Shown here in pieces: positions 10,801-14,058 of a stretch of 64,000 nucleotides of DNA. A program made the translations under genes and the position numbers. Under the pieces are notes generated by a model that saw nothing but the letters and a program-made list of their open reading frames with translations, did no database searches and was not told where the DNA came from. The DNA comes from Mumia xiangluensis. Its GTDB lineage: Bacteria; Actinomycetota; Actinomycetes; Propionibacteriales; Nocardioidaceae. How positions within the stretch are numbered: the first letter of the stretch is position 1; the number at the start of each line of letters is the position of its first letter. The stretch lies in NCBI RefSeq assembly GCF_010994095.1, contig NZ_WJYO01000001.1, positions 1,178,001 to 1,242,000 of the forward strand, in the 5' to 3' direction.

Positions 10801-10873
10801 GGGCCTCTAGCTCAATTGGCAGAGCAGCGGACTTTTAATCCGCGGGTTGTGGGTTCGATCCCCACGGGGCCCA
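10801..10873 (+). tRNA. tRNA-Lys (anticodon TTT)
   Basis: A full cloverleaf of 73 nt can be drawn. The acceptor pairs GGGCCTC (10801-10807) with GGGGCCC (10866-10872) through one G-T pair. The D-stem is GCTC/GAGC, the anticodon stem GCGGA/TCCGC around loop CTTTTAA, the variable region GGGTT, and the T-stem GTGGG/CCCAC around TTCGATC. The discriminator base is A10873. The CCA end is not encoded. The 3' 12 nt plus two following bases recur at 11464-11477. Confidence 0.97.
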
Positions 10874-10875
10874 CA
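10862..10875 (+). repeat. Left copy of a 14-bp direct repeat (tRNA 3' end; att-like)
   Basis: CCACGGGGCCCACA covers the last 12 nt of tRNA-Lys and the next two bases. An identical copy lies 602 bp downstream at 11464-11477. Repeats of a tRNA 3' end are the usual mark of site-specific integration, in which the tRNA stays intact on one side. Confidence 0.7.
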
Positions 10876-10941
10876 GAGTTCGGACCCCCCACGTCCTCGT
10901 CGTCGGGCGGGGCGGCGGCGGGCAGCTCAGTCAGCCGCGTC

Positions 10942-11445
10942 CTACCCGCTCGCCCCGAAGCCACGGAAGACGCCGTCGGACTGCACATTGTCCGCGAAGT
11001 CGCGGAAGTCCATGTTCGCGATCGCGAGATTGGACTCGACGGAACCGAACTCGCGAACTGCGCACCTGAACGTGCGGCCGAACGACTCCGACATCTTCGG
11101 GTCCACGTCCCCCTCGACGGAGAGGTCCACGTACGCAACGGTCAGCTCAGCGCCGCTAGCTGCCTCGTGCATGGAGCGAGCGTCCGCCACGACGATGAAT
11201 CCACTGAGTCGACGGTAGAGCGCGGCGGAGGCCCTCACGAGCGTGTCCCCCGTGGCACCCTCGAACTCTGGGTGGTCGAACGCAGTGACGTTGGGCGTGT
11301 AGGTGCCGTCCGAAGAACCGCCGAAGTCGGTCGGCTGCGTCACCTCTGCGATCACGCGACTCCAAGCCTCGTCATCAGCGAAGTCGGTACGCAGCAAGGG
11401 AGTGCCGCAGGCTTCGAACGTGTCGGCCAGGATTGAGAGGTCCAC
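10942..11445 (-). CDS. Hypothetical protein, DUF6924-like, enclosed by tRNA-derived repeats
   Basis: This 167-residue acidic protein begins MDLSILADTFEACGTPLLRTDFADDEAWSRV; the LLRTDF-DDEAW block recalls small DUF6924-type proteins of actinobacteria, though I rely on memory for that. A second block, FIVVADARSM, resembles the same fold. There is no signal peptide or membrane segment. It is the only gene between the 14-bp repeats 10862-10875 and 11464-11477 and runs opposite to both neighbours. To the eye its base use is more AT-rich than the flanking genes. Function is unknown; single-gene accessory cargo is one reading. Confidence 0.75.
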   Translation of the reverse strand: MDLSILADTFEACGTPLLRTDFADDEAWSRVIAEVTQPTDFGGSSDGTYTPNVTAFDHPEFEGATGDTLVRASAALYRRLSGFIVVADARSMHEAASGAELTVAYVDLSVEGDVDPKMSESFGRTFRCAVREFGSVESNLAIANMDFRDFADNVQSDGVFRGFGASG

Positions 11446-11463
11446 GACGGGCGATTATCGCAG

Positions 11464-11477
11464 CCACGGGGCCCACA
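11464..11477 (+). repeat. Right copy of the 14-bp direct repeat (att-like)
   Basis: This is an exact copy of CCACGGGGCCCACA from the tRNA-Lys 3' end. No other tRNA part precedes it: the T-arm and anticodon arm are absent, so it is not a second tRNA gene. It sits 42 bp before the start of the DUF2252 gene. Confidence 0.7.
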
Positions 11478-11518: not shown

Positions 11519-12934
11519 GTGACGACCACACGAAGCGGCGTGCGACAGCACCCCACCGTCGAGGAGCGCAGAGAGCGCGGAGCGGCCGCGCGCCGCGAGG
11601 TGCCGCGCTCGCGGCTGGCGGAGTGGGATCCGCCGGCAGACAGGTTCGACCCCGTCCAGCTGCTCGAGTCGCAGGCCGTCTCGCGGATCCAGGATCTCGT
11701 CCCGATCCGGTACGGCCGGATGCTGGCGTCGCCGTTCGCCTTCTACCGAGGCGCTGCGGCGATCATGGCTGCCGACCTCGCGGCGAGCCCGACGTCGGGC
11801 ATCACCGTCCAGGCGTGCGGCGACGCCCATCTCTCGAACTTCGGGCTCTACGCCTCGCCGGCGCGCACCCTCGTGTTCGACCTCAACGACTTCGACGAAA
11901 CGCTGCCGGCACCGTGGGAGTGGGACGTCAAACGGCTGACCGCGAGCCTGGAGATCGCCGGAAGGAACAACGGGTTCGGGCGGAAGGATCGGCGCCGCAT
12001 CGTGCGCGCAGCGGCGGCCGGCTATCGGACGACGATGCGAGACTTCGCGGAGAAGCCGAACCTCGAGGTCTGGTACTCCCGTTCGACGGTGCAGAAGCAC
12101 ATGCCCGTCATGAAGCAGATGCTGACGCCGAAGGACTTCGCGCAGGCGGAGAAGGTCGTGACGAAGGCGATGGCGCAGGACAGCTCGCGGGCGGCGTCCC
12201 GCCTCACCCGGGTCGTGGACGGGCAGCGACGGATCGTCCACGACCCGCCGCTGATCGAGCCGATGGAGATGCTGGGGTCGGCCGACGAGGCGGCTCGTGT
12301 CAGCGGCGCGATGCACGAGATGATCAACGACTACCGCCAGACCCTCAGCCTCGAGTCCCGGTACGTCCTCGAGTCCTTCCGCTACGTCCACCTGGCTCGG
12401 AAGGTGGTCGGAGTCGGCAGCGTCGGCACCCGCGCATGGATCATCCTCATGACGGGTCGCGACGACGAGGACGTGCTGCTGCTCCAGGCCAAGGAGGCGC
12501 AGGCCTCGGTCCTCGCGCCGTACGCGGAGGCCAGCCAGTTCGACAACCAGGGGCAACGGGTGGTCGAGGGACAGCGCTTGATGCAGGCCAGCGGCGACAT
12601 CTTCCTGGGCTGGCACCGGGCCGAAGGCATCGACGGCCAGCTGCGCGACTACTACATCCGCCAGCTGCGCGACTGGAAGGGGTCCTGGGATCCCGCGGCG
12701 ATGAGCCCGCACGCGATGGTGGTCTACGGGAGCCTCTGCGGTGCGGTCCTCGCTCGCGCCCACGCCCGGTCCGGCGACCGGATCGCGATCGCGTCCTACC
12801 TCGGGTCCAGCGACCGCGCCGACCGTGCGCTCGTCGACTTCGCCGAGGCGTACGCCGACCAGAACGAGCGGGACTGCGCTGCACTCCGCCGAGCGGTCGA
12901 GGACGGGCGTTGCGCTGCCACGACCGGTGTCTGA
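11519..12934 (+). CDS. DUF2252 family protein
   Basis: This 471-residue cytoplasmic protein matches the DUF2252 family, common in actinobacteria and probably related to protein-kinase-like phosphotransferases. Family blocks seen are RYGRMLASPFAFYRGAA, CGDAHLSNFGLYASP, VFDLNDFDETLPAPWEWD and, near the C-terminus, GDRIAIASYLG with SDRADRALVDFAEAYADQ. The HLSNFG and FDLNDFDE blocks resemble the catalytic HGDxxxxN and DxD of aminoglycoside-kinase folds. GTG 11519 was chosen as the start giving the normal family length; no clear ribosome-binding site is seen. Without the repeat-bounded unit it would directly follow tRNA-Lys. Function is not established. Confidence 0.88.
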   Translation: MTTTRSGVRQHPTVEERRERGAAARREVPRSRLAEWDPPADRFDPVQLLESQAVSRIQDLVPIRYGRMLASPFAFYRGAAAIMAADLAASPTSGITVQACGDAHLSNFGLYASPARTLVFDLNDFDETLPAPWEWDVKRLTASLEIAGRNNGFGRKDRRRIVRAAAAGYRTTMRDFAEKPNLEVWYSRSTVQKHMPVMKQMLTPKDFAQAEKVVTKAMAQDSSRAASRLTRVVDGQRRIVHDPPLIEPMEMLGSADEAARVSGAMHEMINDYRQTLSLESRYVLESFRYVHLARKVVGVGSVGTRAWIILMTGRDDEDVLLLQAKEAQASVLAPYAEASQFDNQGQRVVEGQRLMQASGDIFLGWHRAEGIDGQLRDYYIRQLRDWKGSWDPAAMSPHAMVVYGSLCGAVLARAHARSGDRIAIASYLGSSDRADRALVDFAEAYADQNERDCAALRRAVEDGRCAATTGV

Positions 12935-13142
12935 GCAGGAGGTACGTTTTCGATCGACCGGTCGAGATATGCAACGGATGTCGTCGTCTCAAGGTCGAAT
13001 GACGGGGGATCGGCGGCATGGCTGGAGGTTTTGAGACCTGCATCCGTCGTCTTTCCGCCGATTCGTCGATCCGAGGTACGCAACCACCGCCGAACCCGTA
13101 ACCTGAATATGAACTGCTGTTCGACGACGCGCGAAGGAGACC

Positions 13143-13313
13143 GTGGTGGCATCGCCCGAACCACTGGACGTCCGTCTCCGTGATCAGGACGTGCTCGACG
13201 AGATCGAGATGACGAGCAACCTGATGATCGCGGCGTCGGCAGCCTCGGGGCGCCTGAGCCAGCACGTTGTCGACGAGATTCTCGGAGTGCGCCCGCGCCG
13301 CAGCGTCGCGTGA
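13143..13313 (+). CDS. Small conserved-looking protein, 56 aa
   Basis: This short ORF has good initiation signals: GAAGGAGA ends 5 nt before GTG 13143, and a TAACCT box lies at 13099-13104. The acidic, helical product contains LDEIEMTSNLMIAASAASGRL and ends HVVDEILGVRPRRSVA. Small proteins with a similar core (LDEIxLTxxLMIAAS) occur in other actinomycetes as far as I recall, with no known role. The second codon is also GTG, so the start may be 13146. It is followed by a small hairpin (arms CCACCTC 13314-13320 and GAGGTGG 13332-13338). Confidence 0.65.
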   Translation: MVASPEPLDVRLRDQDVLDEIEMTSNLMIAASAASGRLSQHVVDEILGVRPRRSVA

Positions 13314-13340
13314 CCACCTCCAGATGAACGTGAGGTGGCT

Positions 13341-13364
13341 CACGCGCGCGCACGCGCACGCGTA
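13341..13364. repeat. 24-nt alternating pyrimidine-purine tract
   Basis: CACGCGCGCG...CGCGTA alternates perfectly for 24 nt just upstream of a TAGGGT box (13363-13368), ahead of the DUF47-Pit operon. Such tracts can adopt Z-DNA under negative supercoiling. A regulatory role is speculative. Confidence 0.5.
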
Positions 13365-13440
13365 GGGTGAGATGCGCGTGGTGGGGACCCAGGACCTACC
13401 ATTGACCCGGCCTTACCCCACCCCTGACGGGAGTCTTGTC

Positions 13441-14058
13441 GTGCGGTTGAAATTCCGACCGGCTGATACATCGTTCTACGATCTCTTCACCGAACTTGCC
13501 GGCCACCTCGTGGACGGCGCGAACCTGCTTGCGAAGATGCTCGACGAGTCGTCCGACCGTGACGCGATCGCCAAGCAGCTCAGTGAGGTCGAGCACGCCG
13601 CCGACGACACGACCCACGCGATCATCAACCGCGTCAACCAGACCTTCGTGACGCCGTTCGACCGTGAGGACATCTACAAGCTCGCCAGCAGCCTCGATGA
13701 CGTCATGGACTTCATCGACGAGGCCGGCGACCTGGTCGTGCTCTACGAGCTCGACGCGCTTCCGTCGCGCATGGCGTCGATGGTCGAGGTCATCCAGCGC
13801 GGCTGTGAGCTGACCGCCGAGGCCATGCCGCGGCTGCGGACCATGACCGACCTCGCCGAGTACTGGATCGAGATCAACCGTCTCGAGAACCAGGCCGACC
13901 GCGACTACCGTCGCATCCTCGCCAAGCTCTTCTCCGGCGAGTACAAGGCGCTCGAGGTCCTCAAGCTCAAGGACGTCGTCGAGTCCCTCGAGGATGCCGT
14001 CGACGCCCTCGAGTCCGTGGCCAACACGGTCGAGCAGATCGCAGTCAAGGAGTCCTGA
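13441..14058 (+). CDS. DUF47 family (PhoU-like) protein, partner of Pit
   Basis: This 205-residue all-helical protein is a PhoU-like DUF47 member, usually encoded just before a Pit phosphate transporter and thought to control it. The N-terminus VRLKFRPADTSFYDLFTELA and the internal VNQTFVTPFDREDIYKLASSLDDVMDFID are typical, the latter carrying the acidic metal-binding helix. GTG 13441 is preceded by GGGAG and gives the standard length; earlier in-frame starts would add unrelated residues. The pit gene follows after 2 bp, so the two form an operon. Confidence 0.9.
   Translation: MRLKFRPADTSFYDLFTELAGHLVDGANLLAKMLDESSDRDAIAKQLSEVEHAADDTTHAIINRVNQTFVTPFDREDIYKLASSLDDVMDFIDEAGDLVVLYELDALPSRMASMVEVIQRGCELTAEAMPRLRTMTDLAEYWIEINRLENQADRDYRRILAKLFSGEYKALEVLKLKDVVESLEDAVDALESVANTVEQIAVKES

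Follow-up and report, generated by a model that had tools for sequence, protein, structure and literature searches.

In Nocardioidaceae, the 3′ end of tRNA-Lys(TTT) is an insertion hotspot for mobile elements, and at this tRNA in a Mumia genome a second copy of the tail closes a unit that carries a single gene. The stretch analysed here, referred to as the window, comprises 64,000 nucleotides (C1:1178001-1242000 of a 4.62-Mb genome). The pair of 14-bp repeats that bounds the unit is a real feature of the locus. Our preferred interpretation, to which we assign a probability of about one half, is that the unit is an integration relic at tRNA-Lys(TTT) and that the right copy of the repeat is the displaced tail of the tRNA.

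The repeat pair, the gene it encloses and the neighbouring interval

The 14-mer CCACGGGGCCCACA occurs twice in the same orientation with a spacing of 602 bp, and its left copy consists of the last 12 nt of tRNA-Lys(TTT) followed by CA (Table 1; the tRNA ends at 10874 according to ARAGORN and at 10873 according to Rfam model RF00005). A whole-genome search returned these two exact copies only, together with one more that has 1 mismatch. When the 3 kb downstream of the tRNA were resampled with a first-order Markov model, a 14-nt block of the tRNA 3′ end, with any block allowed, recurred in 2 of 4000 resamplings. The 46 tRNAs of the genome were also ranked by their longest 3′-end repeat within 3 kb; tRNA-Lys(TTT) came first and the runner-up reached 12 nt. 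The similarity extends imperfectly and rightward only, to 32 nt at 81% identity. The 15th base differs between the two copies and 12 of the 18 nt beyond the 14-mer match, a count found at 0.05% of window positions 5000-60000, while the best extension score past the 14-mer is equalled at 0.37% of the same positions. The initial annotation had reported an exact recurrence of the tRNA tail (12 nt plus two bases), an intact tRNA on the left and a right copy outside any other tRNA, and these observations are confirmed, with ARAGORN finding no second tRNA in the window.

Table 1. Features of the tRNA-Lys(TTT) locus, in window coordinates
Feature	Position	Strand	Basis
tRNA-Lys, anticodon TTT, intact; insertion hotspot in Nocardioidaceae	10801..10873	+	ARAGORN (to 10874), RF00005
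Left copy of CCACGGGGCCCACA, candidate tRNA-side attachment core	10862..10875	+	sequence match
Left noncoding end of unit, 66 bp; no arm repeats or inverted end found	10876..10941	.	repeat searches
DUF6924 gene, 167 aa, GTG start, sole gene between repeats	10942..11445	-	ORF list, Pfam, GC3
Right noncoding end of unit, 18 bp	11446..11463	.	coordinates
Right copy of CCACGGGGCCCACA, outside any tRNA; imperfect similarity on to 11495	11464..11477	+	sequence match, ARAGORN
DUF2252 gene, also absent here in G005	11519..12934	+	Pfam, congener comparison
Resumption of G005 synteny, leading into PhoU_div/DUF47 gene	12966..14055	+	Pfam, congener comparison

Both the ORF list and Pfam bear out the earlier description of the interior as one DUF6924-like gene on the opposite strand (PF21962, E 1.2e-34, 119.8 bits against a gathering score of 24.4). 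Homologues in two other family genomes are 46-48% identical, and because their alignments begin at residue 1, the gene is not cut at its start. With this genome counted in both sets, DUF6924 is present in 8 of the 120 genomes from the family and in 6 of the 396 from the phylum, and it is in none of five congeners, a patchy distribution that points to horizontal movement. The GC3 of the gene, 0.826, is the lowest among the 12 window genes for which it was computed. DUF6924-like proteins occur on 43 plasmid records, every one below 60% identity; phage records gave no match, and no match to viral contigs was confirmed. On the Gordonia plasmid pGKT3 (L312, 2960-4774), DUF6924-like sequence lies within the second half of a 604-aa ORF, a possible fusion. 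A comparison of the protein with solved structures gave one match that is not meaningful (E 0.91), and its single-sequence structure prediction was poor (mean pLDDT 40.1). No defence model matched DUF6924 or DUF2252, and a literature search found no paper naming DUF6924.

The initial annotation suggested looking in other genomes for the same ORF next to tRNA 3′-end repeats. DUF6924 is not habitually found at tRNAs: at the 12 other loci that carry most of the domain, scans of about 1.5 kb on each side (167 bp on one side of L073) revealed no tRNA, the same was true of a partial 13th locus (L186), and among 82 tRNA-Lys(TTT) loci the window alone contains DUF6924.

Searches for functional ends within the unit were negative. 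The best score for inverted ends was 7, against a shuffle mean of 7.5, and was equalled by 228 of 300 shuffles; terminal inverted repeats abutting a target duplication, as in an IS481-like transposon or a transposase-less derivative of one, were not found. Of the exact repeats of at least 8 nt, the 14-mer alone has its two copies close to the ends of the unit without either falling inside the gene, and no arm-type repeats inside both ends, of the kind that characterise an element moved in trans by a tyrosine integrase, were found. A near-repeat of 12 nt at 10991 and 11375 was considered as an arm and rejected, as it lies within the DUF6924 coding sequence. No integrase, arm site or larger ancestor of the unit was found.

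The unit stands in front of a DUF2252 gene, and the initial annotation predicted that some relatives would show tRNA-Lys followed directly by that gene. With tblastn, none of the 81 other tRNA-Lys(TTT) loci has this arrangement. The syntenic congener G005 has only 57 bp between its tRNA and the point from which it is collinear with the window (12966 onward). Both DUF6924 and DUF2252 are missing there, a 2.1-kb difference; the absence of DUF2252 had not been part of the earlier picture. The same interval holds a subtilase gene (PF00082) in G002 and G004 and MarR-family and beta-lactamase-family (PF00144) genes in G001, while in G003 none of 13 window genes used as queries had a match within 17 kb around the tRNA. 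Because its content differs among congeners, we regard the interval between tRNA-Lys and PhoU_div as a variable spot. At no other locus of either gene are DUF6924 and DUF2252 neighbours, in flanks of about 1.5 kb that are shorter where a contig ends; therefore they do not resemble a natural pair and look like separate arrivals. Given that G005 also lacks DUF2252, this gene arrived either separately from DUF6924 or jointly with it, and we consider a separate acquisition at this variable spot probable. A scan of 52 DUF2252 loci for tRNAs found one only at the window locus and at L020; at L020, in G010, a DUF2252-like gene of 26-29% identity lies in opposite orientation beside the 3′ end of tRNA-Lys(TTT). 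The state directly before insertion was seen in no genome, among the 81 other tRNA-Lys(TTT) loci and G005, and a comparison with tRNA-Lys flanks from other genomes gave the flank after the right copy no more similarity than a control.

Mobile elements at tRNA-Lys(TTT) across the family

We gathered 82 distinct tRNA-Lys(TTT) loci and kept the 75 with at least 800 bp downstream, dropping 7 shorter ones. The query, made up of the 30 nt that lead to the tRNA end and the 8 nt that follow it, was searched for exact repeats of at least 14 bp within 8 kb. Such a repeat is present at 6 of the 75 loci, the window included (Table 2), while the reversed query gave 0 of 75, with a longest match of 13. Three of the six repeat-bearing loci are transposon-type. 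With the 11 integrases of the window's own genome as queries, tyrosine-integrase matches were found within 3 kb of the tRNA at 5 of 76 loci searched (L227, L233, L244, L250 and L277). At L244, the tRNA has behind it an integrase-like ORF that may be truncated (210 aa), and the locus contains a direct repeat of at least 44 bp with copies 10.85 kb apart.

Table 2. tRNA-Lys(TTT) loci with a 3′-end repeat of at least 14 bp
Locus	Repeat	Spacing	Description
L101	30 bp	5.1 kb	from a metagenome assembly; left tRNA copy is odd (67 nt, ARAGORN); doubtful, little weight
L236 (G125)	27 bp	1641 bp	unit without integrase match
L280 (G051)	19 bp	1349 bp	transposon-type, 15-bp duplication
L281 (G042)	15 bp	131 bp	transposon-type
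L087 (G023)	15-16 bp	1386 bp	transposon-type
Window	14 bp	602 bp	DUF6924 unit

In the window's own genome, tRNA-Lys(CTT) (L003/L177, C7 near 58600) has a different tail and a tyrosine integrase gene close behind it.

The element at L280 encodes a DDE transposase with rve domains, lies at tRNA-Lys in opposite orientation and is flanked by the 15-bp duplication CCACGGGGCCCACCC, which shares its start base with the window repeat. A second lineage, whose transposase at L087 matches the IS481 leucine-zipper model PF13011, occurs at tRNA-Lys in G023 and G111 and at tRNA-Met in G023. The two duplications in G023 (L087 and L311) are GGCCTACGAACGATT and GCCCTACAACGCGTT, each 15 bp long and each opening with the last 7 nt of the tRNA as called by ARAGORN. 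The pair in G042 is in the same register as those in G023, with IS481-like sequence beyond it. In G062 (L308), a contig that carries a relative starts at the tRNA-Lys tail, and in G111 (L258) the right flank is unlike the left and no duplication was seen. Partial or offset cases are found in G040, where the tRNA-Lys locus has left-end similarity and the transposase copy lies about 100 bp from a tRNA-like tail, not at the tail, and in G077, where a partial transposase copy is near a contig end. Judged from these insertion points, the IS481-like lineage looks as though it targets tRNA tails; in a narrow literature search we recognised no paper on IS481-like insertion at tRNA 3′ ends.

The unit in G125 (about 3077360-3079060 of its C1) is of a different kind. 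It is 1.64 kb long and is bounded by perfect 27-bp repeats that begin in the T-loop and end 5 bp beyond the tRNA. Its left and right flanks are 90% and 86% identical to G131, where the right-flank sequence begins directly at the tRNA. Because two other relatives, G122 and G128, have some different sequence of about 300 bp at that place, G131 is a near-empty site and not a proven ancestral one. An integrase search of the unit gave no match, and neither Pfam nor the defence models of PADLOC matched its two largest plus-strand ORFs. A 20-bp direct repeat, AGTGGGCACAGAATGGGCAC, lies inside both ends, with the second arm 127 bp before the right core.

Arm-like sequence links this unit to G104. The shorter motif TGGGCAC-N4-TGGGCAC is found at offset +71 at the tRNA-Lys of both genomes. 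In G104, a gene for a tyrosine integrase (PF00589) lies within 3 kb of this tRNA, and a second copy of the motif stands 44 kb downstream; 124 bp after that copy comes GTTCGAGTCCCACGGGGCC, which matches the tRNA over 19 bp; from motif and core pair together, a 44-kb integrase island at this tRNA is probable. On its own the motif is not rare: it has 9 matches in 6 of 23 genomes, and the pattern read backwards has 6 matches in 6 genomes. Its weight is its position beside the cores, not its count. Elsewhere in its genome, G125 carries an integrase gene that shares 61% identity with the G104 integrase; 1 stop is reported within this match. Units such as the initial annotation imagined, small and served by an integrase in trans, thus probably exist at tRNA-Lys(TTT), as G125 suggests, and G125 is the clearer case: a small integrase-less unit that has its arm motif and offsets in common with a probable full island. 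With a defined unit, core, arms and candidate helper, G125 and G104 make helper-dependent packets at tRNA genes directly testable.

Origin of the 602-bp unit

We propose that incoming DNA would have recombined at or beside the tail of tRNA-Lys, keeping the tRNA whole on the left and displacing the old tail to 11464-11477. On this view, the element would once have been larger, with the acquired gene DUF6924 at its right end, and would have lost its integrase and arm sites by deletion. What is left would be a strongly reduced remnant, similar to a CIME, that forms a layer in front of DUF2252. We infer both the arrival by site-specific recombination and the formerly larger size. The initial annotation had called the locus a footprint of site-specific integration, for which the displaced tail, the patchy gene and the hotspot speak and against which the missing arms and the missing empty junction count. 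It offered two sources for so small a unit. The leftover of a lost island fits better, even with no larger ancestor found; the non-autonomous cassette moved in trans is not supported, since neither inverted ends nor attP-like arms were found and the noncoding ends measure 66 and 18 bp, and the unit therefore does not resemble a working cassette.

Several features sit poorly with an integration relic. Its 14 bp are short beside the 27-bp and 44-bp repeats at other tRNA-Lys(TTT) loci, the repeat has its start downstream of the T-loop, the point from which the cores in G104 and G125 run, and the 14-mer is perfect yet the similarity drops at once to the 12 of 18 nt described above. The start base shared with the L280 duplication points to transposition, the insertion type at half of the repeat-bearing loci.

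It is also conceivable, if unlikely, that linear DNA brought in DUF6924 and DUF2252 through homologous or illegitimate recombination and that the copy of the tail is a coincidence or a by-product of homology to the tRNA. Such a route would agree with the comparison to G005, where the two genes are missing as one difference, and with the 12966 boundary, since none of the three best matches listed is a tRNA-tail repeat near it. DUF6924 and DUF2252 are divergent and the 14-mer lies inside their 73-bp intergenic space, and tRNA genes are variable spots for many reasons. Against it, so long a block was rarely reproduced in the 3-kb resampling, the repeated block abuts the tRNA 3′ end, and repeats of this type are in excess at tRNA-Lys(TTT) throughout the family.

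Could the 602 bp be a true one-gene non-autonomous element, inserted by an integrase in trans as is likely for the G125 unit? The kind seems to exist at this tRNA, as suggested by the G125 unit, the arm offsets in G104 and the 61%-identical integrase gene, and the DUF6924 unit is compact and exactly bounded. We nevertheless regard this origin as improbable. In the elements examined at tRNA-Lys (L244, G104 and G125), arm-like repeats are set in from the left core by 57-71 bp and from the right core by about 125 bp; the ends of the window unit are therefore too short for arms positioned in this way. The window unit has no arms or repeated end motifs, the 18 bp between start codon and right core leave no room for an arm outside the gene, and DUF6924 stands beside no tRNA at its 12 other loci. 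Its repeat also begins 9 nt downstream of the G104 and G125 cores, which start in the T-loop. On sequence grounds, the 602-bp unit is probably not a helper-dependent unit of the G125 kind.

We are similarly doubtful that the 14-mer is the target-site duplication of a tRNA-tail transposon that was later replaced by DUF6924 or carried it. The 15-bp duplication at L280 shares the start base of the window repeat, and IS481-like elements of another lineage make 15-bp duplications at tRNA-Lys and tRNA-Met. The window unit, however, has no transposase and no terminal inverted repeats (the score of 7 noted above), its start codon is 18 bp from the right copy, which leaves no room for the usual IS end, and the 15th base is unequal between the copies.

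A wider proposal, that tRNA-Lys(TTT) of Nocardioidaceae hosts a general class of integrase-less hitcher units, from one gene in 0.6 kb (window) to a few genes in 1.64 kb (G125), that borrow the integrases of full-size islands at this site, appears quite improbable to us. If it were true, single genes would travel between genomes in tRNA-bounded packets, and the 602-bp unit would be among the smallest of these. The integration relic remains our preferred account, and under it the window locus shows how a tRNA gene can gather single genes layer upon layer.

Comparison with known systems

The nearest described class is the cis-mobilizable element (CIME), as presented in PMC5704250. Like the CIME described there, the window unit has att-like flanking repeats, lacks integration and transfer genes and is arranged in tandem with further acquired DNA at the 3′ end of a tRNA. 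Its direct repeats are attL-/attR-like, with one of them in the tRNA 3′ end, as in a CIME or another integrase-less remnant, and DUF6924 is alone inside; that integration or transfer genes were once present would follow from the proposed origin. Unlike the CIME of that account, it has 588 bp between its repeats, one gene, no recognisable att arms and no known parent ICE or IME. Neither derivation from a known ICE, IME or island nor a precise empty site in a relative was found for the unit.

The G125 unit shares with the window unit an intact tRNA-Lys(TTT) on the left, a displaced tail on the right, small cargo and the lack of an integrase match; it differs in its 27-bp repeats, the 20-bp repeat inside both ends and the near-empty site in G131. 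IS481-family transposons insert at the tRNA-Lys(TTT) tail with 15-bp duplications, and L280, which is rve-type and not tied to IS481 by PF13011, has the start base of the window repeat. These transposons carry a transposase and inverted ends, whereas neither was found in the window unit.

Actinomycete ICEs (AICEs) at tRNA-Lys, for example the tandem Frankia elements treated in PMC3218068, are full-size and equipped with recombination, replication and transfer genes, unlike the window unit. They do share with it the use of tRNA-Lys and tandem accretion in Actinomycetota, and tandem accretion and decay at tRNA genes are known from these same accounts (PMC5704250, PMC3218068).
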